Notes under the pieces: generated by a model | Told to the model about the DNA's origin: nothing | The model's database searches: none | The model's input: only the letters and a program-made list of their open reading frames with translations | Made by a program: the position numbers and the translations under genes | In this document: positions 23,171 through 61,462 of the stretch, one piece after another | How positions within the stretch are numbered: position 1 is the stretch's first letter | Layout: each line of letters opens with the position of its first letter | Origin: an uncultured Eubacteriales bacterium | GTDB taxonomy: Bacteria > Bacillota > Clostridia > Peptostreptococcales > Anaerovoracaceae | Direction: 5' to 3' | DNA length: 61,561 nt | Assembly (NCBI GenBank): GCA_900315555.1 | Contig: OMZN01000038.1 | Location: forward strand, 1 to 61,561

Positions 23171-23211
23171 CAGAACGTAGTAGCGAGAAGGAAACACCAA
23201 GGACATTGAGC

Positions 23212-24651
23212 ATGAGAAGTGACAAACACCGCAGCAGCCATCCCGAACTGAACGATTACTTCAAGGATCGTCAGGCAGAGATCGATGCTTTTCGAAAGGA
23301 ATATGAGGAGGAACCCTCTGCCCGTGCTGAGGCTTCTTCAGAGGCTGCATCCGCAGAGCATGACAGACATTCTGCAGCGCAGAAAGCATACGGTGAGGCA
23401 GGCGGCAGCAGGAAGCCGCCATACATGGACCATACGGAGGCTGAGGAAGCCGGTATAGCGCAGAAGCTGCCCAAAAAAAGCTGGAGCCGGCGGCGCATTG
23501 TCCTTACGATTATCATTGCCATCCTGATCATCTGCGCCTGTGGCTGTACCGGTGCCTGGTATCTTTTGCATCATGCTACCAGCAAAATGGAAAAGGTGAA
23601 TACCAGCTACAAGGATTTTGACATCAATGCACGGGTGGAAAAGCAGCTGAAGAATTACGAGAACATTGCCATCCTTGGCGTGGATGCGAGGAAAAATGAA
23701 AAGATCAAGGGCTCTCGCTCTGATGCGATCATCGTCTGCAGCATCAACAAGAAGACGAAGGATGTCAAGATGATGTCCATCATGCGGGACAGCTATCTGG
23801 AGATCGAGGATGTAAACAACAAAAAATATTTTGACAAGATCACCCATGCGCATGCTTACGGCGGTGCTACCGATACGGCCAAGGCGCTGAATCGGAATTT
23901 GGATCTTAACATTCAGGAATTCCTTGTATTTAACTGGAAGGCGGTTGCAGATATGGTGGATGCGCTGGGCGGTATCACGGTTGACATTCAGTCCAACGAA
24001 CTCAACGACCTCAACCAATATGGTCAGGAGAGCGCCAAGAACGTGGGGAAGAGCTATACCCCGATCACGACGACCGGCAGGCAGACGATCGATGGAGCGC
24101 AGGCGGTGACCTACTGCAGGATCCGCAAAACGTCCGGCGGCGATGAGGGAAGAGCGAATCGCTACAAGAGAGTCATGAGCGCCCTGCTTAAGAAGGCCAG
24201 GAAGATGGATTCCTCTAATCTGCGAAGCGTGGTATCCAATGTGCTGCCGGAGATCCAGACGAATGTGAGTGACAGCACGCTTCTGGGAATCATGATGAAT
24301 GCCAGTGAATACACCATCGGCAAGACGTATTCCTGGCCGCCCGATTTTTACGGCGGCCTGATTAACGGTACCTGGTATGCAGTGCCCACGACGCTGCAGA
24401 GCAATGTGCAGTGGCTGCACGAAAAGCTCTTTGGCCAGAAAGACTATACGCTGACGAAACGCGCACAGCGTCTTTCGCAGCAGATCATTGAACAAAGCGG
24501 CTACGGCGCGGATGCATCCAGCAGCGAGGGCGGTACGTCGAGCGGAACCTCCACCGGTGCTTCCGCATCAGGTACAAGCAGCAGTTCTGCCGGTACCAGC
24601 GGACAGAGCGGGGCGGGTGTCAAAGGACAATATGCGCAGCCGCAGCAATAG
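23212..24651 (+). CDS. LytR-CpsA-Psr (LCP) family cell-wall polymer ligase
   Basis: LCP enzymes move lipid-linked teichoic acids or polysaccharides onto peptidoglycan outside the membrane. 479 residues from the ATG at 23212, chosen because AAGGA sits 8 bases upstream; a TTG at 23206 adds two residues. Layout: a charged cytoplasmic tail (~1-95), one membrane helix (RRIVLTIIIAILIICACGC), the LCP domain (NIAILGVDARKNE, RSDAIIV, MSIMRDSYLEI, TYCRIRKTSGG, with Asp and Arg residues for phosphate binding), and a Ser/Gly/Thr-rich tail. A second LCP gene lies 1.3 kb downstream, and a polymer locus follows. Confidence 0.93.
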   Translation: MRSDKHRSSHPELNDYFKDRQAEIDAFRKEYEEEPSARAEASSEAASAEHDRHSAAQKAYGEAGGSRKPPYMDHTEAEEAGIAQKLPKKSWSRRRIVLTIIIAILIICACGCTGAWYLLHHATSKMEKVNTSYKDFDINARVEKQLKNYENIAILGVDARKNEKIKGSRSDAIIVCSINKKTKDVKMMSIMRDSYLEIEDVNNKKYFDKITHAHAYGGATDTAKALNRNLDLNIQEFLVFNWKAVADMVDALGGITVDIQSNELNDLNQYGQESAKNVGKSYTPITTTGRQTIDGAQAVTYCRIRKTSGGDEGRANRYKRVMSALLKKARKMDSSNLRSVVSNVLPEIQTNVSDSTLLGIMMNASEYTIGKTYSWPPDFYGGLINGTWYAVPTTLQSNVQWLHEKLFGQKDYTLTKRAQRLSQQIIEQSGYGADASSSEGGTSSGTSTGASASGTSSSSAGTSGQSGAGVKGQYAQPQQ

Positions 24652-24663
24652 AAACGAAACGAT

Positions 24664-25545
24664 ATGGAAATGAACAGTGAAAAAACCTATGCGGTATTGA
24701 TCGACGGAGACAATATCGCAACCAAATACATCGGCGATGTCATCAACGAGCTTTCCTCGTATGGAACCCTGACAATCAAGAGGGTATATGGTGATTTTAA
24801 GAATCCCAGACTGAAGGAATGGGAAAGAATTTCACTCAAGTATTCGATCATCCCGGTGCAGCAGTACGAGAATACCAAGGGCAAGAATTCCACCGATATG
24901 GTTATGGCGATTGATGCTATGGACATCCTTCACAGCGGTGAGGTGGACGGCTTCTGCATCATCAGCAGCGACAGTGACTTTACGCGTCTTGCGGCCCGCC
25001 TTCGGGAATCGGGGCGAGAGGTCATCGGCATGGGCAACCGCAATACGGTGCCGGCTTTCATGGCTGCCTGCTCCACGTTCAAGAAACTTGAAAACCTCGG
25101 CGAAAAGGAAGAGGAAGAGCTGGCCGATATGAGTACGATCAAGGAGGAAATCATGGATATTCTCTCTGAAACGGAGGATGATACCATGTACACCAGCCGC
25201 CTTCGGGACACGCTGGTGCGGCGTAATCCCGGATTTGACATCAAGGATTATGGCTTCTCCAAATTTTCCGCCTTCCTGCAGAGCATCGACAGCCTTCAGC
25301 TGTACGAACGCGGCACCAAGGTGGGCATCAAGGGGTCGACCGCTGCGGAGATCCGCGACATGGTGACAACCTTGGTAAAGCGAGGCAGTTATACTACGAA
25401 TGAACTCAACGGTCTGATCAAGCGGCGTTATCCGGATTTCAACCTCAAGAGCATCGGCTTTTCCAGCTGGCGCAGCTTTATCAACAGCATGGGCATGTGG
25501 ATTGATTCGCATAAGCATGTGAAAATGCACAGCAGATCGATCTGA
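24664..25545 (+). CDS. NYN-domain protein with two OST-HTH/LOTUS domains
   Basis: 293 residues. The N-terminal ~150 form a NYN (PIN-like) domain: YAVLIDGDNIATKYI, GKNSTDMVMAIDAMDIL and FCIISSDSDFTRLAARLRES give the acidic residues of a metal-dependent ribonuclease. Two C-terminal LOTUS/OST-HTH repeats follow (about 155-225 and 228-290; each ends FSKFSAFL or FSSWRSFI). Such proteins are thought to bind or cut RNA, but the bacterial role is unknown. It sits 12 bases after one LCP gene and upstream of GtrA and another LCP gene, an odd place for an RNA protein; no secretion signal, so cytoplasmic. Confidence 0.85.
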   Translation: MEMNSEKTYAVLIDGDNIATKYIGDVINELSSYGTLTIKRVYGDFKNPRLKEWERISLKYSIIPVQQYENTKGKNSTDMVMAIDAMDILHSGEVDGFCIISSDSDFTRLAARLRESGREVIGMGNRNTVPAFMAACSTFKKLENLGEKEEEELADMSTIKEEIMDILSETEDDTMYTSRLRDTLVRRNPGFDIKDYGFSKFSAFLQSIDSLQLYERGTKVGIKGSTAAEIRDMVTTLVKRGSYTTNELNGLIKRRYPDFNLKSIGFSSWRSFINSMGMWIDSHKHVKMHSRSI

Positions 25546-25567
25546 GAGAAGAAGAGAGACTGATCCA

Positions 25568-25981
25568 GTGAGAGATAAGATCAAGAAACTGATATTACAA
25601 TTCATCCATTTTTCCTTCGTGGGCGTAACCTGTTTTGCCATCGATTATTGCCTCATGGTGCTCCTGAAGGAGGTGGGTGGTATCGGCTACCTTGTTTCCT
25701 CAGGCATTTCTTTCACTATTGCCACGGTGATCAATTACTTCCTTTCCAGCAAGTTTGTGTTCGATCACCAGACGAAGGGCCGGTTTGACCTGATCATCTT
25801 CGTCCTGCTGGGGGCAGGCGGCCTGGGAATCAACCAGATACTGATGTGGGTCCTTACGGAGAAGGCGGGGATCATCTATCTTGTGAGCAAGCTGATCTCC
25901 GGCATCTTAGTATCTTTTTATAATTTTGTTACCAGAAAACTGTTTCTGGAACGGGGAAAGCGGCACGAGGTGGCATCATGA
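25568..25981 (+). CDS. GtrA family membrane protein
   Basis: 137 residues with four hydrophobic helices, typical of GtrA, thought to help move polyprenyl-linked sugars across the membrane. FIHFSFVGVTCFAIDYCLMV, TVINYFLSSKFVF and VSFYNFVTRKLFLE are the family features. Start is GTG at 25568 with a weak purine-rich upstream site. It overlaps the following LCP gene by 4 bases (ATGA), linking lipid-sugar flipping with wall attachment. Confidence 0.88.
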   Translation: MRDKIKKLILQFIHFSFVGVTCFAIDYCLMVLLKEVGGIGYLVSSGISFTIATVINYFLSSKFVFDHQTKGRFDLIIFVLLGAGGLGINQILMWVLTEKAGIIYLVSKLISGILVSFYNFVTRKLFLERGKRHEVAS

Positions 25982-27525
25982 AAAAGGATACATTTGACAT
26001 GACCAAGGTGCGGGTCAAGGGCGAAGACGCCAGAAATATCAAGGAAACCATTCGTGCCAATGAAGATCCCGCATTTACCCGGGCGGCCGAGGAGTATGAG
26101 CGCATGGCGCGTCAGCGGATCTATGGGGAATACAACGACGACATCGATATCAAGGGACGAGCCAGAAGGGCGGCGGAAGATGTCCGCGACGCAGCAGAAA
26201 ATGCCGGCCGCAGACTGCGTCAGGATGCCCGTGAGGTGAGGCATAAGCAGGCGGCGCACCGGCTTCCCCGTGCGGAGAGAGCGCCGCATCGCTCTTTCAG
26301 TGAGGCGGCCAGACAGTATGAGGCGTTCAAAGAGGATCCTTATCGTCAAGGTGATGATTGGGGCTACGGCCATGCCCGCCAGGAAACCGGCAATGCCCCC
26401 GGCGGCTTCGATTACGGCAGGGAGTATGAGGACAGCTATCCCGCCGGAGGAGATGGCGGACGCGGTGGTCGAAGAGGAAGAGGCCGCGGCAGAGGCAGGC
26501 GGCGCCGCTTTAACGTAGGGAAAGTGATTCGCAACATCCTTATTCTGCTTTTGATTCTTTTTCTTATCTTCGTAGGTGTCTTTTTTCACATGACGTCCTC
26601 TCTGGATCGTGTGGAAACACAGAAGGATGATTTTGCTATCGAAGATTCGGTGGCAAAGGATCTGAAGGGTTACCGCAATATCGCCATTCTGGGGCTGGAT
26701 GCCAGGGCGGATGAGAGCTATGACGGCAGCCGCACCGATGCGATCATCATTCTCAGCATCAAACGCTCCAGCGGCAAAATCCACATGATCTCCGTGATGC
26801 GCGATTCCTATCTGAAGATGGCCGATGCGAATGGCAGCCTGATTCTGGATAAGATCACCCATGCGCATCATTACGGTGGTGGGGTGGATACCTGTGCAGC
26901 GCTGAATCGCAGTCTGGATTTGAATATCTCTGAATTCATGATCTTCAACTGGAAGGCGGTGGCCGATCTTGTGGATGCGCTGGACGGCATCGAGGTCGAT
27001 GTGAAAAAGAACGAAATTCGCGATCTGAACAAATGGGGACCGGAGACCGCGGAAAATTGCGGCGGCACGTGGACAAGGATCACAAAAACCGGCAGACAGA
27101 CAATCAATGGGGTGCAGGCAACGACGTACTGCCGGATCCGCAAGACCTCCGGCGGCGATACCGGCCGTGGGAATCGGTACAAGAAGGTGGTCAGTGCGGT
27201 CATGAAGAAGATCGTGACACACCCTGCCAAGCTGGCCAAAGTATCGAGTGATGTTTTCCCGAAAATCCGAACGAATATGAATAAGCTTCAGCTGCTGACG
27301 GCGGTACTCAATGCACCGCGCTATCGCTTTGATAAGAGCATCAGCTGGCCGAAAGACTATTACGGCGGCTTGCTGTCTAATGGGATCTGGTACGCCGTGC
27401 CGACAACACTCTCCTCTGATGTATCCTGGCTCCACAAGAAAGCTTTTGACGAGGGAAGCTATACGCCCAGCGGAACCTGTGAGGACATCAGCAATGAGAT
27501 CATTTATAATACTGGGCTGCAGTAA
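25978..27525 (+). CDS. LytR-CpsA-Psr (LCP) family cell-wall polymer ligase, second copy
   Basis: 515 residues. A long charged cytoplasmic region (1-175) ends in an Arg/Gly-rich stretch just before one membrane helix (VIRNILILLLILFLIFVGVF); the LCP domain follows with NIAILGLDARADES, RTDAIIILS, ISVMRDSYLKM, ITHAHHYGGGVDT and TYCRIRKTSGG. It is a paralogue of the upstream LCP protein, and the domains match closely, but the N-terminal regions are unrelated, so the two may take different partners. The following gene starts 6 bases on. Confidence 0.93.
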   Translation: MKKDTFDMTKVRVKGEDARNIKETIRANEDPAFTRAAEEYERMARQRIYGEYNDDIDIKGRARRAAEDVRDAAENAGRRLRQDAREVRHKQAAHRLPRAERAPHRSFSEAARQYEAFKEDPYRQGDDWGYGHARQETGNAPGGFDYGREYEDSYPAGGDGGRGGRRGRGRGRGRRRRFNVGKVIRNILILLLILFLIFVGVFFHMTSSLDRVETQKDDFAIEDSVAKDLKGYRNIAILGLDARADESYDGSRTDAIIILSIKRSSGKIHMISVMRDSYLKMADANGSLILDKITHAHHYGGGVDTCAALNRSLDLNISEFMIFNWKAVADLVDALDGIEVDVKKNEIRDLNKWGPETAENCGGTWTRITKTGRQTINGVQATTYCRIRKTSGGDTGRGNRYKKVVSAVMKKIVTHPAKLAKVSSDVFPKIRTNMNKLQLLTAVLNAPRYRFDKSISWPKDYYGGLLSNGIWYAVPTTLSSDVSWLHKKAFDEGSYTPSGTCEDISNEIIYNTGLQ

Positions 27526-27531
27526 GAGACT

Positions 27532-30429
27532 ATGAGTGAAGTATTCCTTTCTGTACTGATTGCAGTGAAGAACTGCAGGGAAAATCTGGGCATGACGCTT
27601 CAGTCGATTCTGGGACAATCCTATGAGGATATTGAAGTGGTTGTTGCCGATGATGGCGCAGAGCCGGAGATCTCTCTTCTGATCGACAACTATACCGATG
27701 AGGATGAGCGGATCCGCGTTTGTGAAACGGGCAGAGAGAGTCTGCCGCAGATGCGCAATGCGTGCCTTCGTCTTGCACGGGGCAAATTCATTATGTTTGT
27801 GGATCCGGGTACGCAGATTCTGGACGAGGCTTTTCGCGCTTTGCACAGGCTTGCGGTGACAAAGGGCGGCGATATCCTGTGCGGCGGTGCAGAAACCATC
27901 ACCTCGACAGGCGTCCATCATCATAAGATGAGGCAGGAGCGTTATAAAGGAAGGGAGATAATCGCGGAGGATGATCCCGTACTCCTGCATGATCTTGAAA
28001 TCCAGAACAAATGGATTCGCCGTGCCTTTATCGAGCAGAATGGCCTTCGCTTTGGCGATTTCGGACAGATGAGCGAGGTGGCTTTCCTGCTTTCCGCGAT
28101 CACGGATGCCAGGGTTATCCGTCCCTGCGATGCCAGAATATGTCGCTTGGAGGGACGTCTGCTGCAGCTTTCCGGTGCGGCGGCGCCCATCGATGCCGGA
28201 GCACTGGATGCAGCATCGCTGCGAGGCTGTATTAATGCTTTCTCTCTGGTCTGCAGGATGACTGCCTCGCATGGCGACGAATACGTTGAGGAACTGGCGG
28301 GGCTCTTTCTGCAGAAAATCCTGATCGATGTCTATTACCGGCATCTGTGGATTTTGGAGCCGGCCTGTGAGGAACTTCTAGTCTCCTATCTTAACAAGCT
28401 GTTCACTGTACTTTCACCGGAGCGGCAGGAGCGCATCGAACGCCACAACGCTGATCTCTTCTGTCAGGAAGGCTTCCGCAGCATTGAAAAGCTGCTGGAT
28501 ATGACACTCGTCACCGTGGCCGTTCACAGCGGTTTTCCAAAGAAGCATCTTCCTGCGCTTCTTTCTGCCCTCTATGCGCAGGCCGCTGTTTCCTTCACCC
28601 TTTATCTTGATGAGACGGCTGAAAATGCTGTGCCAAAGGCCTGCCAAAAGGCTGCGAACATCGTTTATGTGCCGCGGGATGTATTCAATACGGCATTAAA
28701 TGAGAGCCGCAGCCCCTTCATCGCCTTTATCGATGAACCCATATTCTATGATCGTCAGACGCTGCGCAGGATGGTACTTGCCCAGATAGAAAATCCGGTA
28801 GATTTTCTGTGCATGATGCCGAGGATACCCGGTGAAGGCCGGTTTGTCATATCACGTGTTCTTCGACAGGCCTATGCGAAGGATATACAGGCGACGGAGT
28901 GGATGCTCGCCAACAAGCTGTTCCTGCGCGATGTGCTGAGGAATGCGCATGTGGAGCTGGTCGGCGATTCCAGGGAGGATACGGCCTTTCTGTTCCGCGC
29001 ATTGCAGCATCGCATGATGACGAAACCGGGCATGCTTTCTCTGCTCGATGAGGACGAGATTTTAAGCAGGGCAGAGAATCTGCCGCTTTCTCTCCGCAGT
29101 CTGCGCGGTAATAGAAGTGATAGAGAAGGCGCTGAAGAAGCAGCCGGTGCCGGAAGGAATTTCTTCCGTCACCTTTTGGGATTCCTGCGGGAACCGGCGC
29201 CGGTGACGGGAGATGCTGCGGATCCTTCCGATGATATGGATGATGATGAGCGGCAGGCTGAAGAGGAACATGGGAACAGCGGATCATCGATAGAGACCCG
29301 AGGAGATATGCTTTCCTACCGGCAGCGCTGCTACCTGGATCTTGACATTGAGGAAGATACGGTTTTGCTGCAGAATGAGGCGCGGTGCCCGGCGGGAGAT
29401 TTGCTCCATATCCTTCGTTATCTGCAGGATCAGATGCCGGACAAAAAGCTCTTCTTTGTCGTTTCGGAAGCAACGATGGAAAAGACCCGGGCAGTCCTGC
29501 GGCGGGAGCGGATGGATCGTGTAGAATCCGTCCTCTTTGAGAGCGAACGCTACGTGGAAGCAGCATACTCTTCCTCTTGGATTATTGCTGACGACTTGAT
29601 GCCCAGATGGTGGAAGAAGAAGGCCGAGCAGGTTTATCTTTCACTGCTTCTGCGTACACAAATGCTTGGTATTGGTTTTACGGCTGTTCCGCCTGACCAA
29701 TCCTATGCGGATCATGCAGCCAGCGATCTGGATCTGGCGAACAGGGTGCTGCTGCCCAACCGGTATATCCTGAAGCGAACGCAGGAGGATTTCGCACTGC
29801 CGTTCGATCTGGAGGAAAAGGCGGTTTTCTGCGGCAGGCCCGGCACCGCACAGCTCCTCAATGCGCCTCTGCGCGTGAGGATGCGTGAAAGACTTCGCCT
29901 TGCTGCAGAGGAAACGGCTGTGCTATGGATGCCTGCAGCAGAAGGACGTTCCCAGTATGCGGCCTTTGTACTGCAGGCACTTGGGGATGTGGTATCAGCA
30001 CTTGGAAAAGGGCAGATCCTCTATCTTGATCGAGCGTTGCTGGATGCGGCAGCGCGGGAAGATGTCGAGGATCGGCTGGCCGGCAGGGTGGATCTGCGCT
30101 GGATTCCCGAGGACATGGATATCTATGAAATGATGGCGGCGGCCGATGTTCTGATCAGTGATCATTCTCCCTTGCTGACGGACTTCGCTGTCACCCGGCG
30201 CAAGATCATCCTCTATTGTCCTGATCGAAAGAAGCTTGCGCATCAGCCGGGCTATTATCTTGATATCCGTACGCTTCCTTTCCCTTATGCGGAAAATGCA
30301 GAGGAACTGGCAGAAGCGCTTGCCAAGGGCATTGATTATGATGACCGGGATTTTCTTATGGTGTTCAATGTCAATGACAGCCGGGAAAATGTGAGAAAGA
30401 TGATGCAGGAAATGCAGAGCAAAGCATAA
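27532..30429 (+). CDS. GT2 glycosyltransferase fused to a degenerate TagF-like domain
   Basis: 965 residues. The N-terminal ~250 are a GT-A glycosyltransferase 2 domain (LSVLIAVKNCRENL, ILGQSYEDIEVVVADDG, GKFIMFVDPG). From about residue 600 the order of strands matches CDP-glycerol glycerophosphotransferases: YLDLDIEEDTVLLQNEA, AAYSSSWIIADDLMPRWW, VLLPNRYILKRT, and LISDHSPLLTDFAV in place of LITDYSSIFFDF. The NTWHGTPLK motif reads YLSLLLRTQMLG, without the histidine, so that half may be inactive or accept something else. Middle region unassigned. Last gene before the tRNA relic; likely co-transcribed with the LCP genes. Confidence 0.75.
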   Translation: MSEVFLSVLIAVKNCRENLGMTLQSILGQSYEDIEVVVADDGAEPEISLLIDNYTDEDERIRVCETGRESLPQMRNACLRLARGKFIMFVDPGTQILDEAFRALHRLAVTKGGDILCGGAETITSTGVHHHKMRQERYKGREIIAEDDPVLLHDLEIQNKWIRRAFIEQNGLRFGDFGQMSEVAFLLSAITDARVIRPCDARICRLEGRLLQLSGAAAPIDAGALDAASLRGCINAFSLVCRMTASHGDEYVEELAGLFLQKILIDVYYRHLWILEPACEELLVSYLNKLFTVLSPERQERIERHNADLFCQEGFRSIEKLLDMTLVTVAVHSGFPKKHLPALLSALYAQAAVSFTLYLDETAENAVPKACQKAANIVYVPRDVFNTALNESRSPFIAFIDEPIFYDRQTLRRMVLAQIENPVDFLCMMPRIPGEGRFVISRVLRQAYAKDIQATEWMLANKLFLRDVLRNAHVELVGDSREDTAFLFRALQHRMMTKPGMLSLLDEDEILSRAENLPLSLRSLRGNRSDREGAEEAAGAGRNFFRHLLGFLREPAPVTGDAADPSDDMDDDERQAEEEHGNSGSSIETRGDMLSYRQRCYLDLDIEEDTVLLQNEARCPAGDLLHILRYLQDQMPDKKLFFVVSEATMEKTRAVLRRERMDRVESVLFESERYVEAAYSSSWIIADDLMPRWWKKKAEQVYLSLLLRTQMLGIGFTAVPPDQSYADHAASDLDLANRVLLPNRYILKRTQEDFALPFDLEEKAVFCGRPGTAQLLNAPLRVRMRERLRLAAEETAVLWMPAAEGRSQYAAFVLQALGDVVSALGKGQILYLDRALLDAAAREDVEDRLAGRVDLRWIPEDMDIYEMMAAADVLISDHSPLLTDFAVTRRKIILYCPDRKKLAHQPGYYLDIRTLPFPYAENAEELAEALAKGIDYDDRDFLMVFNVNDSRENVRKMMQEMQSKA

Positions 30430-30500: not shown

Positions 30501-30530
30501 TTGACAATGACGCTTTCAGGGTGAGATAAT
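30501..30530 (+). promoter_or_regulatory. tRNA-type promoter ahead of the decayed tRNA-Arg copy
   Basis: TTGACA (30501-30506), 18 bases, GATAAT (30525-30530). The -35/-10 gap and the 28-base distance from the -10 box to the GGCTCAG D-arm sequence are the same as in the intact tRNA-Arg promoter at 61433-61462. It may now serve the wecC operon. Confidence 0.7.
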
Positions 30531-30550: not shown

Positions 30551-30628
30551 GCAACATGGGCTCAGTTGCTTTGCGCTGCGTTGAAAGCATGGATCGGCTG
30601 AGATGCATTGGTCCCTCGTGCCTTACCA
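30551..30628 (+). pseudogene. Decayed tRNA-Arg copy at the left edge of the polymer locus
   Basis: Compared with the intact tRNA-Arg at 61483, this keeps the D-arm GGCTCAG-TG (30559-30567) and the 3' end, where TCCCTCGTGCCT-ACCAAA (30612-30630) has one change. D-arm to CCA distance is 69 against 68 bases. The 5' acceptor strand (GCAACAT), anticodon arm and T-loop no longer fold. With a preserved promoter at the same distance, I read it as a pseudogene of a former tRNA-Arg gene. A transcribed tRNA-like leader for wecC is an alternative. Confidence 0.6.
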
Positions 30629-30702
30629 AAAGAAACCTCGAAGGCTGCTGGTTGAAGGCTTTTTGTTTTGCTATTGTGTGTTAAAAGTTAATAAAGAAGA
30701 TT

Positions 30703-31923
30703 ATGGTTAATGTTATTGGATTAGGATATATCGGTTTACCTACTGCCTTAATGATGGCAACGCATGGCATTGAGGTCATTGGTACGGATTGCGATGAAGA
30801 TCGAGTCTGTACATTAAATAAGGGGGAAATCACCTTTGACGAAGAGGGCTTGGAAGAACTCTTCCATAACGCCTTACAACATGGCATCAAATTTTCGACA
30901 GAGTATCAGGCAGCGGATATGTATATTATCTCTGTACCTACGCCTTATGATCCATTCAGCAAAAAAGTTGATCCCTGCTTTGTGATCGATGCTGTCAAAG
31001 AAGTGCTTCATGCGGCACCGAAGGGGGCCATCCTTGTCATCGAATCGACAGTCAGCCCGGGAACCATTGACCGCAGTGTAAGACCCCTCATCGAGAAAGC
31101 AGGACGTGTTATTGGAGACGATATTCATCTTGTTCATGCACCCGAAAGGATTATTCCCGGCAACATGATCAGTGAATTAATTCATAACAGCAGAACAATC
31201 GGCGCTGATTCAAAGGCTGCAGGTGAGGCTGTGAAAGCCTGCTATGCCAGCTTTTGTCAGGGTGATATTGTGGTAACGGACATCAGAACGGCGGAGATGA
31301 CCAAAGTCGTCGAAAATACATTCAGAGCAGTAAATATTGCCTTTGCCAATGAACTGGCAAAAATTTGCCGACATGACAATATGGATGTATATAAAATTAT
31401 TGATATTTGCAATATGCATCCCCGCGTTAATATCCTTCAGCCTGGTCCGGGTGTGGGAGGCCATTGTATTTCCGTAGATCCCTGGTTTTTAGTAGGAGAT
31501 TATCCGAGTCTTGCCAAGGTCATCGGGGAAAGCATGTACGTGAATGCGAGCATGCCTGACTATGTTCTGGGACGCATCGACGAAATAATGGAAGCCAACC
31601 ATATTGCCGACGCTGCAAGGGTCGGCTTGTATGGATTAACGTACAAGGAAAATGTTGATGATTGTCGTGAATCTCCGACGCTGCAGTTGCTCAAAAGCCA
31701 GAAGCGCCATCTTGCTGCGCCCCTGAAGGTCTACGATCCGTTGATCAAAAGAGATCTTGTGGAGAATCAATACCATGATTTAAACCAGTTCCTGAAAGAT
31801 ATTGATATCTTGGTGATCATGGTCAAGCACGATGAGATAAAAGAAAAAATGGCGATGCTCAAAGACAAAATTGTTCTTGACTGTCATAATATTTGTCCTT
31901 TTGAAGGAACGTATCATCTGTAA
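30703..31923 (+). CDS. wecC: UDP-N-acetyl-D-mannosaminuronate dehydrogenase
   Basis: Oxidises UDP-ManNAc to UDP-ManNAcA with two NAD+. 406 residues. The N-terminal Rossmann fold is VNVIGLGYIGLPTALMMA; ILVIESTVSPGTID and APERIIPGNM follow; the catalytic cysteine lies in PGPGVGGHCISVDPWFL. The GHCISVDPWF form and HAPERI.PG motif point to the WecC branch rather than UDP-glucose dehydrogenase, and wecB is the next gene. Noticeably more A/T-rich than genes before 30.4 kb, suggesting separate origin. The start ATG has no strong ribosome binding site (AATAAAGAAG). Confidence 0.9.
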   Translation: MVNVIGLGYIGLPTALMMATHGIEVIGTDCDEDRVCTLNKGEITFDEEGLEELFHNALQHGIKFSTEYQAADMYIISVPTPYDPFSKKVDPCFVIDAVKEVLHAAPKGAILVIESTVSPGTIDRSVRPLIEKAGRVIGDDIHLVHAPERIIPGNMISELIHNSRTIGADSKAAGEAVKACYASFCQGDIVVTDIRTAEMTKVVENTFRAVNIAFANELAKICRHDNMDVYKIIDICNMHPRVNILQPGPGVGGHCISVDPWFLVGDYPSLAKVIGESMYVNASMPDYVLGRIDEIMEANHIADAARVGLYGLTYKENVDDCRESPTLQLLKSQKRHLAAPLKVYDPLIKRDLVENQYHDLNQFLKDIDILVIMVKHDEIKEKMAMLKDKIVLDCHNICPFEGTYHL

Positions 31924-31975
31924 TTAATAGAACGCACCATCTGTTATCATTAGTGCAGTATTGGGAGATTGGCTA

Positions 31976-33076
31976 GTGAAAAAGGTAATGCTTGTTTTCG
32001 GAACAAGACCGGAAGCGATAAAAATGTGTCCGTTGGTCAATGAACTGAAAAGACGACATTCGATGAAGACGATTGTCTGTGTGACAGGCCAGCACAGAGA
32101 GATGCTCGACCAGGTATTGGACACATTTCATGTTATGCCTGATTATGATCTTTCTATCATGAAGGAACAGCAGACTTTGTCGGATGTCACTACGAGAATA
32201 CTGGATTCCATTCAAGATGTTCTTATCAGAGAAAACCCGGATATTGTCCTGGTTCACGGAGACACAACCACGACATTTGCCTCTGCATTAGCCTGCTTCT
32301 ATCAAAGAATACCGGTCGGCCATGTCGAAGCCGGACTGAGAACGTATAATCTTTATTCTCCCTATCCCGAAGAATTTAATCGACAAGCCGTTGGCATGAT
32401 CAGTGCTTTCCATTTTGCACCAACGGAACGAAGCCGAAACAACCTCATCAGAGAAGGAAAAAGACCGGATACAATTTATGTGACCGGAAACACAGGCATT
32501 GATGCATTGAAAACAACGGTACGATCAGATTATCAGCATGATGAACTGACATGGGCCAAAGGCAGCCGCCTGATTATGATTACAGCACATCGCCGAGAAA
32601 ATCTGGGAGCGCCGATGTATAACATGTTTCGTGCGATCAGGAGAGTCATGCATGAGCACCCGGATATTAAAGCCATTTACCCGATCCACATGAATCCGGC
32701 TGTAAGAAAAACCGCGCAGGATATTTTTGGCGATGACGATAGAATTCATATTATTGAACCGCTGGGTGTCCTTGATTTCCATAATTTCCTCAGCAGATGC
32801 CACTTGATCTTAACGGACAGCGGCGGTATTCAGGAAGAAGCGCCAAGTTTGGGAAAACCAGTACTGGTGATGAGAGATACAACAGAACGGCCGGAAGGTG
32901 TTGAAGCGGGTACCTTGAGACTGGTTGGGACCAAGGAAGAAACAATCTATCGGGAGTTTTCGGTTCTATTGGATAATCAGCAGGAATATGAACGGATGGC
33001 ACACGCATCCAATCCATACGGCGATGGATCGGCGTCCAGGAGAATCGCTGATGTGTTAGAAAAGGATGACGAATGA
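31976..33076 (+). CDS. wecB: UDP-N-acetylglucosamine 2-epimerase (non-hydrolysing)
   Basis: Interconverts UDP-GlcNAc and UDP-ManNAc, supplying WecC. 366 residues. KVMLVFGTRPEAIKMCPLV, VHGDTTTTFASALA, HVEAGLRTYNLYSPYPEE and LTDSGGIQEEAPSLGKPVLV are all family motifs. I start at the GTG at 31976 (after TTGGGAG), which gives the usual N terminus; an ATG at 31961 would add five residues. It overlaps the next gene by 4 bases. The non-hydrolysing type means it gives UDP-ManNAc, not free ManNAc, so it does not by itself feed the NeuB-like enzyme downstream. Confidence 0.94.
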   Translation: MKKVMLVFGTRPEAIKMCPLVNELKRRHSMKTIVCVTGQHREMLDQVLDTFHVMPDYDLSIMKEQQTLSDVTTRILDSIQDVLIRENPDIVLVHGDTTTTFASALACFYQRIPVGHVEAGLRTYNLYSPYPEEFNRQAVGMISAFHFAPTERSRNNLIREGKRPDTIYVTGNTGIDALKTTVRSDYQHDELTWAKGSRLIMITAHRRENLGAPMYNMFRAIRRVMHEHPDIKAIYPIHMNPAVRKTAQDIFGDDDRIHIIEPLGVLDFHNFLSRCHLILTDSGGIQEEAPSLGKPVLVMRDTTERPEGVEAGTLRLVGTKEETIYREFSVLLDNQQEYERMAHASNPYGDGSASRRIADVLEKDDE

Positions 33077-35274
33077 TGATGGAAGATAAGAATATCAGGT
33101 CACTCAGAGCAAGTGTAAGGAAGCTGCAGCGTGAAAATCTTGCACTCAAGCGCAAGGTAAAGTCATTAGAGCGGATTGCTAAAAGATATAGAAGATCGCC
33201 ATATGACTTCTTTTTCCGCGCGTTGAAAAAAACAGTCAAAACCATCCTTCCTTCGCTGTTCTATTATCCTTCGATTACGGTTATTATTCCAACCTATCAG
33301 CGGAATGATCTTTTTCAGGCATCGGTCGATTCTGTATTGCAGCAGAAGTACAAAAAAAGGCAGCTGCACGTGATCGTCGTTCATAATGGCAGAGATGCTG
33401 CCTATTTTGACTATCTGAACAGCAAATTTCAATCGATGCAGCGGGTTTCCGTTATCCACACCGATGAGGCTGGATGTGCAATGGCCAGAGAGTATGCGAA
33501 AAAGTATATCAGAACAAAATGGATGTTCTTCCTTGATGATGATGACTATCTCACGCCGGGCTATTTTAAAGAACTGGTTGGATGTATCCGCAGCAAACGT
33601 GTAAAGATCGTATGCGGCAAAGTCGTTGATGTCTATAAAAGCGGTGCGATGCAGGAGGATACCTATATCAACCGCAGTTTGAAGAAAGCCGGCAATGGTA
33701 TCGTTGATCCCTATGGCCCGATTTCGAGTGCCTTTGCGTTAGCCACCGGGAAACTATATGAAACGACAATGTTTAAACATGATTTTGTACCCTTCAACAT
33801 TGCCTTGCAGCATACAGAGGATGTGGATTTCTGGGTAAACAATTTAGATCGCATTCCCAGGGGATCAGTCTGGTCATGTGCCAATGCAAAAGAAGCTTAC
33901 GTCCGTCGTGTGCGTCCAGGCAGCATCAGCAGGCCCTCGAAAGAAGCTGAGTTTAAGTTTATGTGCAACGACCAGGTGGCCTCCATTGAAAGATACGAAA
34001 AGCGTCTGCTGGACAAAAATGTCGGCACGAAACAGAAAAATTTTATCTTAAACATTATTTGGATCATTAATAAGCGCATGCAAAAGTATTACAATGCGCT
34101 TGATGACGAAGGCAGGAATGCCTTTAGAAAGATCGCTTATCAATCCAATTCCGGATTTGTAAACAGATCTTTTTTTGGAGAGAAAAAAGGCATCGCATTT
34201 TGTCATAATTTTTCACCGGCCATAGATGCATCCGCATTTGTAGCTTCCAAGAGGCTTTCACAAATCGCCGATTATTTTCACTGCAGGGGCATTGACTGGA
34301 CGGTTATTTCTGCTGATATGAGCCGGGTGAGGAATTCGGACAACGTCTGGAACACATACTATGCAAGATTTCAATATACAAGAAAGCGTGTAGTTGGCGT
34401 CGACACCAATTCACTGATAACGGTGCAGGACAAATGGGGGAACGATGCCTATTACCAAATACGTGACAAGCATGCCGACTATGTCTATTCAAGAAGTATG
34501 TGGATCGGCTCGCACATTGCAGCATCCAGATATAAAAAAAGCCACAAGAATGTGGTTTGGATCGCAGAGTTTTCCGATCCCGTTGTCATGGGTACAGATA
34601 ACACGCCGAAAAAACTGGATCAAAACTATACCGGGGAAATGGAAATCTTCAATGATTACTATCATTATGTAGAGCAGCTTGTTTATGAAGGCGCCGATAA
34701 AATCATTTTCACCAATGACAATCAAAAGCAGTACATGCTTGCTTATTCGGGAAATCTGCATAATGAAGAGGTCCTTAAAAAGAGTCTTGTCTGGAATCAT
34801 CCGCTGATATCATCGGATTATGCAAAGCTGTTTTCGCATGATATACCGATCGATAAGAACAAGATCAATATTGCTTACTTTGGCATTTTTTACAAAAATA
34901 GAGGGGCAGACGAATTATTGAAGTTCCTGAAAAACGAGAGTATCGTTGTGCACCTCTTCACCAGAAGAACAGAAGAAATCGAGTCGCTGTCGTTTCAATA
35001 TCCGAATTTAGCCGTCTATGATTTTGTACCACTGTTGAAAATGTACAGCATCATACCAGATATGGATTATTGTTTTGTAAACGATCTGGCATTTCCCGGA
35101 GAGCTCAATCCATACCTTCCTTCGAAGATCTCCGATTATCTTAGCGCGGGAGGCTTTGTCATCGCTCTTGTGATAGGAAATTCACCGATGCGGCACTACC
35201 AGCATGATCACTTGATTAAAACAGAGTGCATTGATGATGATTTCGTTTATTCTCTCACCAAAAGGCGCTCATAA
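33073..35274 (+). CDS. Two-part glycosyltransferase (GT2 plus GT-B-like C-terminal half)
   Basis: 733 residues. A basic coiled-coil start (1-45) precedes a GT-A family 2 domain: ITVIIPTYQRNDLFQASVDS, QKYKKRQLHVIVVHNG, KWMFFLDDDDYLTPGYF (the DDDD stretch is the metal-binding DXD). From ~375 a second half begins GIAFCHNFSPAIDASAFVAS and looks like a GT-B fold with KIIFTNDNQKQYML, INIAYFGIFYKNRGADELL and PYLPSKISDYLSAGGFVIAL, the last typical of GT4 donors. Two transfer steps in one protein are therefore possible. Sugar and acceptor cannot be read. A/T-rich like wecB and wecC, with which it forms an operon. Confidence 0.78.
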   Translation: MMMEDKNIRSLRASVRKLQRENLALKRKVKSLERIAKRYRRSPYDFFFRALKKTVKTILPSLFYYPSITVIIPTYQRNDLFQASVDSVLQQKYKKRQLHVIVVHNGRDAAYFDYLNSKFQSMQRVSVIHTDEAGCAMAREYAKKYIRTKWMFFLDDDDYLTPGYFKELVGCIRSKRVKIVCGKVVDVYKSGAMQEDTYINRSLKKAGNGIVDPYGPISSAFALATGKLYETTMFKHDFVPFNIALQHTEDVDFWVNNLDRIPRGSVWSCANAKEAYVRRVRPGSISRPSKEAEFKFMCNDQVASIERYEKRLLDKNVGTKQKNFILNIIWIINKRMQKYYNALDDEGRNAFRKIAYQSNSGFVNRSFFGEKKGIAFCHNFSPAIDASAFVASKRLSQIADYFHCRGIDWTVISADMSRVRNSDNVWNTYYARFQYTRKRVVGVDTNSLITVQDKWGNDAYYQIRDKHADYVYSRSMWIGSHIAASRYKKSHKNVVWIAEFSDPVVMGTDNTPKKLDQNYTGEMEIFNDYYHYVEQLVYEGADKIIFTNDNQKQYMLAYSGNLHNEEVLKKSLVWNHPLISSDYAKLFSHDIPIDKNKINIAYFGIFYKNRGADELLKFLKNESIVVHLFTRRTEEIESLSFQYPNLAVYDFVPLLKMYSIIPDMDYCFVNDLAFPGELNPYLPSKISDYLSAGGFVIALVIGNSPMRHYQHDHLIKTECIDDDFVYSLTKRRS

Positions 35275-35354
35275 ACTGGCATGCAGTTTCGCGCTCTTTG
35301 CTGCGATAAGCTGCAGGCGGGCGTTTACTTTCCGCAGACAGCAGACGGAGTGGC

Positions 35355-38300
35355 TTAGGAGAGCAGCCCATCTGCTTTTAACATGCTGATCAGGCGTTTG
35401 ACATTGTTCCCGTCATGAAAGGCAACGATTTTTCTGTATTTTTCCTCCTGCTCTTCTGTATGGGGGCGGTGATAGATCTCCTGCACCAGCCTGGTTAAAT
35501 CTTCAGGGCTGTAGGCGATCGGCGCAAATACATTGCTTTCGTTCAGCAGCAGTCTGGTGCCTTTCCCATAGCTGCGCAGACAGTGGTCTTTTTCTTCCCA
35601 GTAGAAGATGACCTGTGCGCCGCGATAGAAAGCGTCATAGGCTATGGAAGAGTAATCGGTGATCAGCAGAGCCGTATGCTGCAGGATGGTATCGTACTTT
35701 TCACTGATAAGAAACTTTTTTCTGATCGGATCATCCGACTTGCTGATGCGTTTAGCAAAGAGCGGGTGAGGCAGCAGAATAATCTTATCCTGGTAGGCCT
35801 TGGGTATGGCATCAGTAATACGTTTGAGCATCCTGCAGTAACCGGAATTCGATGGGTCAGCCTGTATTTCATTGTATTCCCAAGGACGCCATGTCGGCAT
35901 GATGACGATTTTATCCGCCGCAGGATGCCGCTTGTTCCGATCAAATTTAGGCAGGCCGCTGATATACAGATTCTGGTATGTGTAGCCGCCGCAGTTAACA
36001 AAGTGATCTGCTTCTGCTTGTGAAGAAACCACAACACGGTACTGATACTTTCCTGCCATCGTCTTGCAGTGAAAAAATCTGCGCGAGGGAGAATCCAGAG
36101 AAACCATATACATGACACCGTGCTGCAGAAATACGTAATTGACACGTCTGCTTTTGATTTTGCGCAGTGCTATTCTGTTAACCATCGACAGATCCAGGGC
36201 ATGATCCCTGGTTTCCGTTCCGATGAATGTTTTGGCTGCGAAGAAGTAGAGATAATGTTTAAAGGATCCTTTCGGAATGAGATGATCTTTGTATTGATTT
36301 TGAATTTCGTTCCAGAACGGGTAATCCTTTCGCAGAAAAAAGAAGGCATTCGTATATCCTTGATCCAGCAGCGCTTCATACAGAACACTTGCGCTTTCCT
36401 CGTAGCGGGAGGCCTCTTTTTCATAAAGAACGATCAGAGATCTTCCATGATAAAAATGTGCGCAAAGCCAGGCAATGAATAGCCTGCACTGCTCTTTGAG
36501 AGAATCCGTCATATTGCATTCCCGCACCAGCAGCATCAGCTTGTTGCCGCCGCCTTGACGGAAACATGCTGTCATGTTCTGCTTTCGATCCATATAGAGT
36601 GCACCTTTGGAAAAAACATTTCTGCTGCCGTAAATCTGGTTATACCGGATGAAGCGCACCATGCGCTCTTCATTCAGATCCGCAATGCCAAAGTCCACCG
36701 TGACCTGATTGTTTTTCGCCATATGCCGGAGATCTTTGATGGGAATGGAGATCTTCCAGCAGGCGATATGCCATGCTGCCGGCTTTGTCGTGCTGGCAGA
36801 GAAAAACCGGGGATGATAGACTTTGCTGTCAATCATCACGGTGAGATCGGCGAGCCGGAAAGGCAGAGCGCCGTGAAGGAAAACAAGGGAGAAGATATGC
36901 AGTGCATCTCCCTTATTATAAAAGAAGGGCATCATCTGTCTGACACGATAGTTTTTTGCAGCCGGCAGACTGCCGAACTGATAGGAGGAAGACGGAAACG
37001 CGTGCAGCACACCTTGTATAATGGGATTTTCAGGTGCAAAGTCAATCACGTTTACAGGATGAAGGCTGGGAAACAGGCGCGTCCGCTCTCTTGAAAACAT
37101 AGGCTGCAGACGCGGGTCATCCCAGTGAATTCTTTTTAGAAGCCGCAGAACCGCTGCATGAACAAATTCAGGAAAGGTGGATTGAATGGAACTGACGATC
37201 TGCAGCGGAACGACGGTAGGCGGGAGCTGGTCGATATAGCGGCGCTTCTCCTTATTCAGTTTGCAGCGATACACAAAGAGACAGGCGGTATCAGCATGGT
37301 TATCGATATAGGAGCGAATGTTTTTTCGTGCTTTTTTACTCATCGATCCGGCAAAGAGAAGATCGTATGCTGCGCAGTTTTCGTTATCCTGTGAGATCTG
37401 CAGCGTACTTTCTTCTCCGCAGATCATCAAATCCAGAAGCTGTTTAGAAACCTGCATGGATCCACATGGGCAAAATCTCTTCAGGAAAGCGCTCCGATCC
37501 TGGATAAAGGGCGTATTGATTTCCCGCAGCAGCGCTTCGGTTGTTTCGACAATCGGAAAAGGAAACGCTTCCAGCTCCATATAGAATGCATGCGATGACG
37601 AATACTCTTTCCGGTCGTAGGGAAATAAAATGATCTTTTTTCCGGTGATGGCAAAATCAAATATTACGTTAGAATAATCAGTAATCAGTACATCGCTTAG
37701 ATTCAGAAAATCATACGTCTCCAAGGCGGAGGGGAATTTTTGAATATGCTGATACTCCTCATAGGGAATTGTATGATCCGATGCAGGATCAAAATGAACA
37801 AAGAGAACCTGATTATCGCAGAGTTCTTGATCAATGGCATGCAGGAAGCCAGCAGCGGCCTGCCAATGGGTATGGTTCTCCGCACTGCGGGAAGAACCGC
37901 GCCGGGCAGGCATGTAAGCGATAATTTGTTTGTCGTTCAGACCGAGGCTTGTTCGAAGCTGGTCTCTCCTTTGGGCATCATAAAACACTTCGTTCTTTGG
38001 CGTATTTACTACAATGGATTTGTGATGAAACAGATACCGCAGAAAATAATCATCCAAAAACACATCTTTTGTAAAGACGTTGGGGAAAAGGACGAAATCG
38101 CTTTGCAGGAAATTCTTCTGCATATTGGCATAGGAGCGATTGCTTGCTTTATCAGATCTGCCCACTTTCATGAGAGGTGTGCCGCTCCAAGTATTGAGAT
38201 AAATCTGCTCCGGACGTTTTTGAAAACAGATGGGGAATGCGCTGTCTGCTGCAAGGTAGGCGGAACGCGCGAGATATCGATAATATTTTCTGGTAAACCT

Positions 38301-38591
38301 TTTTACCAGAATGACATCATTGAAGCCATAGGAAATCATCCGCGCTTTTGCCTCGTTTTGCGTCCTTTTCGTGGTGACAAACACCACGGTGAGAGTATTC
38401 CATTTTGGATTGGTCTTCAGTGCACGCAGCAGGGCGAACATGCTGCCGTCTACGTTCCGCCCCTGATCGGCTTCCAGCAGGATGGTGTTTTTTAGAATCG
38501 GTTTGGAAAGCGATGCGGTATAGTAAAAGCAGAGATTCTGGCGGATACTGTGTAGTTTTTTTTTGATGCCTTTGAAAAATCGTGTACTCAT
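35355..38591 (-). CDS. Double-domain CDP-glycerol glycerophosphotransferase-like protein, first paralogue
   Basis: 1078 residues, TagF family, two catalytic-type domains. N-terminal domain (~40-390): YLNTWSGTPLMKVGRSDKAS and DVLITDYSNVIFDFAITGKK; the usual histidine of NTWHGTP is serine here. A C-terminal domain (~740-1070) has NYVFLQHGVMYMVSLDSPSR, IVIMPTWRPWEYNEIQ and LLITDYSSIAYDAFYRGAQV, complete. TagF enzymes add glycerol phosphate from CDP-glycerol to a lipid-linked acceptor at the inner membrane face. It lies against the direction of its neighbours with its own extended -10 promoter. A paralogue at 48697-51930 has an intact N-terminal motif. Confidence 0.85.
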   Translation of the reverse strand: MSTRFFKGIKKKLHSIRQNLCFYYTASLSKPILKNTILLEADQGRNVDGSMFALLRALKTNPKWNTLTVVFVTTKRTQNEAKARMISYGFNDVILVKRFTRKYYRYLARSAYLAADSAFPICFQKRPEQIYLNTWSGTPLMKVGRSDKASNRSYANMQKNFLQSDFVLFPNVFTKDVFLDDYFLRYLFHHKSIVVNTPKNEVFYDAQRRDQLRTSLGLNDKQIIAYMPARRGSSRSAENHTHWQAAAGFLHAIDQELCDNQVLFVHFDPASDHTIPYEEYQHIQKFPSALETYDFLNLSDVLITDYSNVIFDFAITGKKIILFPYDRKEYSSSHAFYMELEAFPFPIVETTEALLREINTPFIQDRSAFLKRFCPCGSMQVSKQLLDLMICGEESTLQISQDNENCAAYDLLFAGSMSKKARKNIRSYIDNHADTACLFVYRCKLNKEKRRYIDQLPPTVVPLQIVSSIQSTFPEFVHAAVLRLLKRIHWDDPRLQPMFSRERTRLFPSLHPVNVIDFAPENPIIQGVLHAFPSSSYQFGSLPAAKNYRVRQMMPFFYNKGDALHIFSLVFLHGALPFRLADLTVMIDSKVYHPRFFSASTTKPAAWHIACWKISIPIKDLRHMAKNNQVTVDFGIADLNEERMVRFIRYNQIYGSRNVFSKGALYMDRKQNMTACFRQGGGNKLMLLVRECNMTDSLKEQCRLFIAWLCAHFYHGRSLIVLYEKEASRYEESASVLYEALLDQGYTNAFFFLRKDYPFWNEIQNQYKDHLIPKGSFKHYLYFFAAKTFIGTETRDHALDLSMVNRIALRKIKSRRVNYVFLQHGVMYMVSLDSPSRRFFHCKTMAGKYQYRVVVSSQAEADHFVNCGGYTYQNLYISGLPKFDRNKRHPAADKIVIMPTWRPWEYNEIQADPSNSGYCRMLKRITDAIPKAYQDKIILLPHPLFAKRISKSDDPIRKKFLISEKYDTILQHTALLITDYSSIAYDAFYRGAQVIFYWEEKDHCLRSYGKGTRLLLNESNVFAPIAYSPEDLTRLVQEIYHRPHTEEQEEKYRKIVAFHDGNNVKRLISMLKADGLLS

Positions 38592-38870
38592 TTCATTCGT
38601 GCGTATCTTTGATGCGTTTGCTGGTTCGTTGTTTTTACTGTGTTTATGGAAAAATTATAGCATAGAACATCGCTCCCTTGCATAATTTCACCTATCATGT
38701 AGAATAAGAAAAGTTAATATCTAAGGCACTGCGAAAGATTCGTGATCCACACAAAGTTTTGCATCATTTTTATAGTGCATATAGTGCGGAGAATGATCAT
38801 TTGATCGTGCCGGGTAATCTTTCTTTTGATTGTGCAGGGAATGGTTACTTGCTGAAAACCTGGAGATACT
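38592..38870. other. Divergent spacer with promoters and a possible coding remnant
   Basis: About 280 bases between divergent transferase genes. Besides the minus-strand promoter at 38654-38664, a plus-strand pair TTGCAT (38678-38683), 16 bases, TAGAAT (38700-38705) could serve the gene at 38871. From 38708 an open plus frame reads through to 38992 without a start of its own; its LSFDCAGNGYLLKTWRYYES stretch looks protein-like, perhaps the end of a lost gene, but I cannot name a family. Confidence 0.3.
38654..38664 (-). promoter_or_regulatory. Extended -10 promoter of the first TagF-like paralogue
   Basis: On the minus strand TATGCTATAAT, with TGC just ahead of TATAAT as an extended -10; no good -35 box. 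The 15 bases TTCTATGCTATAATT (38667-38653) recur exactly upstream of the second paralogue (51996-51982). Confidence 0.6.
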
Positions 38871-39983
38871 ATGAAAGCAGTCATCAGAATCTGGATCGGC
38901 CTGCTCAACGGCATCTACTCCTCATTCAAACGACGTCCTGTGAGGAAGAAGGTGACCCTGATCAGCCGGCAAAGCAATGTTCCGTCGCTTGATTTTCAAA
39001 TGCTGGCGCAAGCCCTGCAGCAGCGCGGGGCAGAGACTGTCGTGCTTGCAAGAAGCCTGAAAAAGACGCCCGCCGGCATTCTTTCCTATCTTTTTCATAT
39101 GACGACACAGATGAAGCATATGGCAGAATCACAGGTCGTCATACTGGATTCCTACTGTATATGCGCTTCTGTACTGCAGCACAGGAAAACCTTGAAGATC
39201 ATGCAGATCTGGCATGCTGCAGGTGCGGTGAAGATGTTTGGAAAACAGACGCTGGACAAAAGACAGGGATCTTCGAGTCAATTAGCGGAAGCGCTGCATA
39301 TGCATGCGCAGTATGACTATATCGCTGCGCCCAGTGAGACGACCGGCAGACATTTTGCAAGGGCTTTCGGCTATCCGATGGAACGAATCATTCGCCTGGG
39401 ACTGCCGAGAATCGATTATATCAGGAAAATTCAGGACCGTGCTTCTGCTGTTCAGCAATGGCTGCCGGAAGTTTCGAATGGAAAAAAGAATATTCTTTAT
39501 GTGCCGACCTTTCGCCGTCATACAGATACCAGCTTTCAGGATCTGATCGACCATATCGACTTCACGCGCTATAATCTGCTGGTGCATCTGCACCCGCTGG
39601 ATCAAAGCGGACGCCCGGCCGTAAAAGATGGTCTTTACTACGTTGACGGCTATCCGGATGGACCAGCCTATGACTTTCTTTCGATAGCAGATGCTGTCAT
39701 CAGCGATTACTCGTCCTTTATCATCGAGGCAAGTTTATGCGATATCCCGCTGTATCTATATACATACGACTTGACATCGTATGCACTGGAGAACGGATTG
39801 AACATCCTGTTCGATGAGGAAGCCATTGGAAAATACCAGTTCAAAGAAGCCGATGCGCTTGCAAATGCTCTGGAGGAGCCTTATGATATGGATGCGCTGC
39901 GGCAGTTCAGAGATAAGTATATTCAGGTTAAAGACTGTACGGAAAACATGACAGCCTTTGTGATGCATCTTCTTGAAGAGTAG
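38871..39983 (+). CDS. CDP-glycerol glycerophosphotransferase family protein (TagB-like, single domain)
   Basis: 370 residues, one domain, the size of TagB-type primases that add the first glycerol phosphate to a lipid-linked disaccharide. KIMQIWHAAGAVKMFGKQTL holds the histidine of the NTWHGTP position in the form usual for TagB/ribitol-type members; YDYIAAPSETTGRHFARAFG, ILYVPTFRRHTD and VISDYSSFIIEASLCDIPLY are the further family motifs. An N-terminal amphipathic helix (MKAVIRIWIGLLNGIYSS) may sit on the membrane. Weak ribosome binding site CTGGAG. First gene of module B. Confidence 0.85.
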   Translation: MKAVIRIWIGLLNGIYSSFKRRPVRKKVTLISRQSNVPSLDFQMLAQALQQRGAETVVLARSLKKTPAGILSYLFHMTTQMKHMAESQVVILDSYCICASVLQHRKTLKIMQIWHAAGAVKMFGKQTLDKRQGSSSQLAEALHMHAQYDYIAAPSETTGRHFARAFGYPMERIIRLGLPRIDYIRKIQDRASAVQQWLPEVSNGKKNILYVPTFRRHTDTSFQDLIDHIDFTRYNLLVHLHPLDQSGRPAVKDGLYYVDGYPDGPAYDFLSIADAVISDYSSFIIEASLCDIPLYLYTYDLTSYALENGLNILFDEEAIGKYQFKEADALANALEEPYDMDALRQFRDKYIQVKDCTENMTAFVMHLLEE

Positions 39984-42521: not shown

Positions 42522-43015
42522 AGCAGCTTACAACACCTCTCACAGAAGAAGCGGTCTCCAGGCTGAAAACGGGAGAACGGGTACTTTTGTCGGGAAAGAT
42601 CTATACGGCGCGCGATGCAGCCATTCCCAAACTGGTGGAACTGATCAAAGAGGATCGTCTAGGCGATCTGGATCTGCAGGGACAGGTCATTTTCCATACG
42701 GCAGTCAGTCCTGCCGGCGTAGGCCCCACCTCCAGCAACAAGCTGGAAATTGAAGAAAACATGGGTATTCTCTCCGATGCCGGCATCAAAATGCATCTCG
42801 GCAAGGGAAAGATCAGCGAGAAGACCATCAAGATCCTCGAAGAAAAGAATGCGGTTTATGCTGTGATGGCACCTGTCACAGCCCTGCTGGAAAGCCGAAC
42901 ACTGGCACGCAGGGTGGCGGCCTTTCCGGAACTTGGCATGGAAGCTATGCATGAACTGGAAGTGCGGGATTTCCCTGTAATCATCGCCTCAGCTAGGGGC
43001 ACATCGGTATACTGA
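42518..43015 (+). CDS. Class I fumarase/tartrate dehydratase-type hydro-lyase, beta subunit
   Basis: 165 residues, size of the separate C-terminal (beta) subunit of two-component class I fumarases and L(+)-tartrate dehydratase (TtdB). LLSGKIYTARDAAIPKLVEL, GQVIFHTAVSPAGVGPTSSN and GKGKISEKTIKILEEKNAVY follow the family closely; the substrate-binding Arg/Asp and TSSN lie as expected. ATG at 42518 after GAAGGAGG; an in-frame start at 42473 would lie inside the flippase gene. Embedded in the polymer locus between flippase and rfbA. Substrate could be fumarate, tartrate or a locus-specific acid. Confidence 0.87.
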   Translation: MKQLTTPLTEEAVSRLKTGERVLLSGKIYTARDAAIPKLVELIKEDRLGDLDLQGQVIFHTAVSPAGVGPTSSNKLEIEENMGILSDAGIKMHLGKGKISEKTIKILEEKNAVYAVMAPVTALLESRTLARRVAAFPELGMEAMHELEVRDFPVIIASARGTSVY

Positions 43016-43025
43016 AGGAGTCGTC

Positions 43026-61432: not shown

Positions 61433-61462
61433 TTGACAAAATCGATAGAAGAATGCTAAAAT
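61433..61462 (+). promoter_or_regulatory. Promoter of tRNA-Arg
   Basis: TTGACA (61433-61438), 18 bases, TAAAAT (61457-61462), 20 bases before the tRNA. Confidence 0.75.

Follow-up and report, generated by a model that had tools for sequence, protein, structure and literature searches.

The 3′ ends of tRNA genes are a common place of entry for acquired DNA into chromosomes. In Burkholderia pseudomallei 1710a/b a tRNA pseudogene is found between two phage islands (PMC2920897), and the Islander criterion for islands at tRNA genes requires that the displaced 3′ fragment sit downstream of the intact tRNA, the reverse layout being rejected (PMC4383910). Here we describe a decayed tRNA-Arg sequence among the sugar-polymer genes of an uncultured bacterium. 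The window, that is, the whole stretch of DNA that was analysed, is the entire contig C92 (OMZN01000038.1, 61,561 nt) of a genome bin (G000) of 1.82 Mb in 157 contigs. We suggest, at a probability of roughly 0.6, that the relic is a tRNA-Arg pseudogene at a junction, that low-GC polymer DNA was joined 3′ of it, and that its promoter now serves the operon that follows. The features concerned are these:

27532 to 30429, + strand: GT2 / CDP-glycerol glycerophosphotransferase fusion, the upstream neighbour (GC 53.6%), polymer-type and situated to the left of the relic
30501 to 30530, + strand: predicted sigma-70-type promoter (TTGACA, 18-base spacer, GATAAT), 11/12 consensus positions, TG before the -10
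30551 to 30628, + strand: tRNA-Arg(ACG) pseudogene by sequence ancestry, 78 nt against 77, tRNA structure absent
30559 to 30565, + strand: D-arm heptamer GGCTCAG, in register with tRNA positions 9-15
30612 to 30632, + strand: best-kept block (T-stem 3′ half, acceptor 3′ strand, CCA and AAAG), 20/21 identical
30640 to 30667, + strand: 14-nt imperfect tandem repeat and T-rich stretch, with terminator-like pairing no better than chance
30703 to 31923, + strand: nucleotide-sugar (UDP-sugar) dehydrogenase, the first gene 3′ of the relic (GC 44.2%)
30703 to 39983, unstranded: low-GC block with sugar dehydrogenase, UDP-GlcNAc 2-epimerase, GT2 and two glycerophosphotransferase-type proteins
61433 to 61462, + strand: promoter of the intact tRNA-Arg (TTGACA, 18-base spacer, TAAAAT), duplicated on contig C67
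61483 to 61559, + strand: intact tRNA-Arg(ACG), the window's one intact tRNA, 2 bases from the contig end

Sequence ancestry and lost tRNA structure

The relic's 3′ end, TCCCTCGTGCCTTACCAAAAG (30612-30632), is identical at 20 of 21 positions to the tRNA-Arg 3′ end followed by AAAG, the last 3′ bases of the reference being taken from the C67 copy of the gene because the window stops at CCAAA. In a search of the whole 1.8 Mb genome this block ranked third, behind the two intact copies (E = 0.015), and the next match after it (E = 0.19) was background; within the window, the relic is the sole site with three or fewer mismatches to the 20-mer, where 0.02 such sites would be expected. The body, compared without gaps to tRNA positions 1-52 in the register of the 3′ block, a register chosen after the 3′ match had been seen, is identical at 28/52 positions, as against 5-17 in other registers. 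In 20,000 dinucleotide shuffles, scored over nine registers, a count of 28 was never attained, and a body match as good as the relic's occurs at 4 of 123,020 window positions, the intact gene counted among them. Ranked over the tRNAs found in the genome, the body agrees best with tRNA-Arg(ACG) (28, then 25 for the next and at most 21 for the rest), which is the best-matching tRNA for the 3′ block as well. The one extra base of the relic lies near tRNA position 53-58, and position 9 is G in both the relic and the genome's own tRNA-Arg and A in 26 relatives. The case for full-length ancestry is a statistical one, because body identity is only 54%.

The tRNA structure is lost. ARAGORN called no tRNA at 30551-30628, an Rfam search of the local stretch at E up to 10 did not recognise the relic as a tRNA, and the relic was missing from the whole-genome Rfam tRNA matches. 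A covariance model built from 27 tRNA-Arg(ACG) genes, drawn from the window's genome and its family and run with the filters off, gave the intact gene 102 bits and returned no match covering 30551-30628. ARAGORN, Rfam and the 27-gene model together rule out a functional tRNA, a class defined by a cloverleaf that such models recognise. Even with the best one-base deletion the relic forms 13 of the 21 cloverleaf pairs, a score equalled by 17% of random 78-mers. The sequence match to tRNA-Arg and the absence of any surviving tRNA structure therefore identify 30551-30628, as judged from sequence, as a tRNA-Arg(ACG) pseudogene: the relic combines derivation from a tRNA of its own genome beyond chance with loss of the fold, two marks of that class.

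Most of what a sequence-only reading of this DNA had said of the relic itself is borne out. It matched the 3′ end and D-arm to the tRNA-Arg at 61483, and we find the 20/21 block, GGCTCAG in register and the 28/52 body; it held that the two copies lie in direct orientation, and both are on the + strand; it described the acceptor, anticodon and T-loop as broken, and the pairing of acceptor, anticodon and T-stem is indeed broken, the cloverleaf pairs being not above random. The tRNA kinship that it proposed fares unevenly, with no covariance signal and no tRNA similarity in relatives on one side and a direct sequence match too good for chance on the other.

Promoter, leader and gene neighbourhood

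The predicted promoter at 30501-30530 is the best promoter-like site between 27.0 and 39.0 kb in a consensus scan. As the sequence-only reading had stated, the gap between the -35 and -10 hexamers (18) and the distance from the -10 to the D-arm (28) are the same in both copies, each of which reads TTGACA-18-hexamer-28-GGCTCAG. Outside the hexamers the two promoter blocks show only a weak likeness (22/50 with the hexamers included, equalled by 0.3% of window positions); homology of the 100 bases upstream was rejected on a gapped alignment (p = 0.24), and the ungapped upstream block, hexamers included, was marginal. The sequence 3′ of the relic was compared with the terminator region and flank of the C67 copy, and homology to that terminator region was rejected (p = 0.12). 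Today the relic would most likely supply the sugar-dehydrogenase operon with its promoter and untranslated leader, the dehydrogenase gene starting 75 bases past the relic on the same strand.

At each of the three scales tested, the largest GC drop of the window falls at 30.25-30.35 kb, no more than ~300 bp from the relic; GC climbs back near 39-40 kb, to ~51% at 40 kb. To within ~300 bp, the relic marks the left end of a ~9 kb low-GC block. The sequence-only reading had set the relic at the left edge of the polymer locus and had the two tRNA copies bracket 31 kb of polymer genes. An edge is there, in that the largest GC drop gives a boundary; it is not the edge of the polymer-type genes, which continue to the left (LytR-CpsA-Psr, GtrA and glycosyltransferase genes at 23206-30429). 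The 31-kb bracket is weakened by the same leftward genes, by fumarase genes within it and by a right-hand tRNA that coincides with the contig end. The fumarase-type genes are two (Fumerase_C, Fumerase), at 42473-43877, amid polymer genes.

The surroundings of the intact gene deserve separate mention. A 620-codon ORF (59398-61260, - strand) that immediately precedes it has no match in Pfam or NCBIfam. In another genome (G224), contigs L110 and L111 overlap by 87 bases and meet precisely at tRNA-Arg; overlaps between contigs of the window's own bin have the same length, and contig breaks at tRNA-Arg may be an effect of assembly. The second tRNA-Arg(ACG) copy of the bin, on contig C67 (L107 1-243), is identical to the window's at 157 of 159 bp over the gene and 80 bp upstream, and is followed 3′ by an acyltransferase, then a hydroxyacid dehydrogenase and then a glycosyltransferase. 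It may represent either another locus or the same locus in a variant strain. On C67, just upstream of the shared block, lies an 86-bp sequence that recurs at the ends of at least five other contigs (C58, C149, C50, C134, C132), has partial matches in C45 and C56, and is probably the end of an insertion sequence adjoining the tRNA promoter. In the one related genus examined, that with the most similar tRNA-Arg, the tRNA-Arg(ACG) gene is not associated with polymer genes and follows housekeeping genes (polC, gcpE and others) instead, so that a conserved link between the two was rejected.

Explanations for the relic

The GC step at the relic, together with low-GC genes directly 3′ of it, favours the view that acquired DNA was joined on at a tRNA gene. 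We propose that a tRNA-Arg gene copy, probably with its own promoter, formerly stood at 30.6 kb, and that polymer-gene DNA of lower GC then became joined right after the tRNA 3′ end. The redundant tRNA copy would have decayed, with one base inserted, ~46% of the body altered and the cloverleaf destroyed, and the promoter would have been retained for its present part in transcribing the UDP-sugar dehydrogenase operon. We infer the order of these events, the route by which the low-GC DNA arrived and the activity of the promoter. Several observations count against such a junction: neither an integrase nor other recombination machinery turned up near the relic, divergence along it is uneven, the leaders of relatives carry no tRNA similarity, and polymer-type genes lie to its left. 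If the proposal is right, it locates one junction at which an uncultured bacterium gained sugar-polymer genes, and it adds a minor instance of a defunct tRNA gene whose promoter serves the adjoining operon. The relic is nonetheless a fairly ordinary kind of genomic scar, not evidence of a new type of system.

The unevenness of the decay (20/21 in the 3′ block versus 28/52 in the body; Fisher p = 0.0007) calls for either short gene conversion or constraint on the 3′ end, because uniform neutral decay does not yield such figures. The last 20 bases would have been preserved either through a short conversion event templated by the intact gene or through a use that escaped detection. A related proposal is that the tRNA gene became promoter and leader of a surface-polymer operon while its 3′ end still works, for example in CCA processing or as part of a terminator. 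We regard this as unlikely. Folding, a terminator scan and a search for NusG paralogues gave no hint of what might hold the 3′ end under constraint.

It is more doubtful still that the two tRNA copies are ends for homologous recombination, exchanging the whole set of polymer genes between them, as the sequence-only reading had contemplated. The direct orientation, the GC step at the left copy and the near-identical tRNA-Arg and promoter on C67, followed there by sugar-modifying genes, so that the tRNA neighbourhood varies or is duplicated, are all consistent with exchange. Against this, the left and right copies are near-identical over only 20-21 bp and ~54% alike elsewhere, which leaves little substrate for homologous exchange today, and the C67 copy, at 157/159 bp, would be a far better partner. 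The interval also has polymer-type genes reaching to its left, two fumarase genes inside it and a GC content that is back to ~51% at 40 kb rather than low through to the right copy.

An ordinary operon leader may by chance hold 20 bases resembling a tRNA 3′ end and GGCTCAG in register. The genome-wide E-value of the 3′ block (0.015), the absence of tRNA structure, with cloverleaf pairs not above random, and the relatives' leaders, which lack any such sequence, would all fit a coincidence of this kind. We nevertheless hold it to be improbable, in that the body gives a match of its own, independent of the 3′ block, by shuffles and by window positions alike, and in that one and the same tRNA is best for both parts.

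Very improbable, too, is a tRNA-like or attenuator leader RNA regulating the polymer operon, although the promoter and leader position suit it, the 3′ end is unusually well kept, and GCCTTACC, in the relic's 3′ end, is able to pair with GGTTGAAGGC ahead of a T-rich run. The leader folds with no extra stability relative to shuffles (z = +1.6), its hairpin and terminator sub-regions are not significant against shuffles, a scan for terminator-like sites found no match there, and an Rfam search of it returned no relevant family; by neither fold nor family does it qualify as a structured regulatory leader RNA. An attenuator was rejected in the same way, the terminator-like pairing being present and equalled by shuffles. 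A search of 99 relatives yielded no homologous leader, and in other, related genera the homologues of the sugar dehydrogenase have unrelated upstream sequence with no tRNA similarity. Other genera also differ in gene neighbourhood. The bin encodes one NusG, and because it is single there is no sign in the bin of a LoaP/RfaH-type factor. The suggestion that the left copy may now be a tRNA-like leader RNA is therefore unsupported, given the missing covariance signal, a fold like that of shuffled sequence and the unrelated leaders of relatives.

We note, as a separate observation, that in genome G019 (L005 1372-1452) the leader of a 75% identical sugar-dehydrogenase gene is a long hairpin, its stability well above that of shuffled sequence (z -3.9 and -4.7). 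It has no Rfam match, and a search of 298 genomes produced only short, weak matches. A leader RNA common to the relatives was rejected, since the G019 leader has no BLAST match in the window's genome.

Least credible of all is an island made by an integrase, in which the left site would be the attachment site of an element integrated in tRNA-Arg, a piece of the tRNA that had been displaced. In its favour are the direct orientation and a 20-21 bp block that stops just beyond the tRNA 3′ end, as attachment cores typically do. Against it, the 3′ fragment lies 31 kb upstream of the intact tRNA, a layout that is wrong for such an island and that Islander rejects (PMC4383910). Among the window ORFs covered by the Pfam scan there is no integrase, and the three integrase domains that the genome does have lie on other contigs. 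The 20-bp core is absent from IMG/VR viral contigs, and a decayed tRNA body is present besides the 3′ block. Of the marks of a tRNA-integrated island, the locus has the same orientation and lacks both the integrase and a downstream 3′ fragment, and a standard integrase-made island is excluded on the latter two counts. A phage attachment core was likewise rejected, the 20-bp core occurring in no IMG/VR contig; a 17-bp part of it occurs in three such contigs, where ARAGORN found no tRNA and no likeness is evident beyond the 17 bp.

Comparison with known systems

The preferred reading, a tRNA-Arg pseudogene at a junction of acquired polymer DNA, can be set beside three kinds of described system. 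Cis-regulatory leader RNAs of polysaccharide operons share with this locus a promoter and an untranslated leader, here of ~165 nt, before a polymer operon; unlike them, the window's leader has no Rfam match and no significant fold, and the bin no NusG paralogue. The islands catalogued by Islander resemble it in that a tRNA gene is accompanied, some tens of kb away, by a partial copy in the same orientation and that atypical base composition sets in at one of the two, and differ from it in that the present interval is without an integrase and its 3′-end match lies upstream of the intact gene. In the B. pseudomallei case, as here, a decayed tRNA gene parts blocks of DNA of different origin and acquired genes adjoin it, whereas the relic in the window has sugar-polymer genes for neighbours, no phage or integrase gene seen, and a promoter that faces the next operon.
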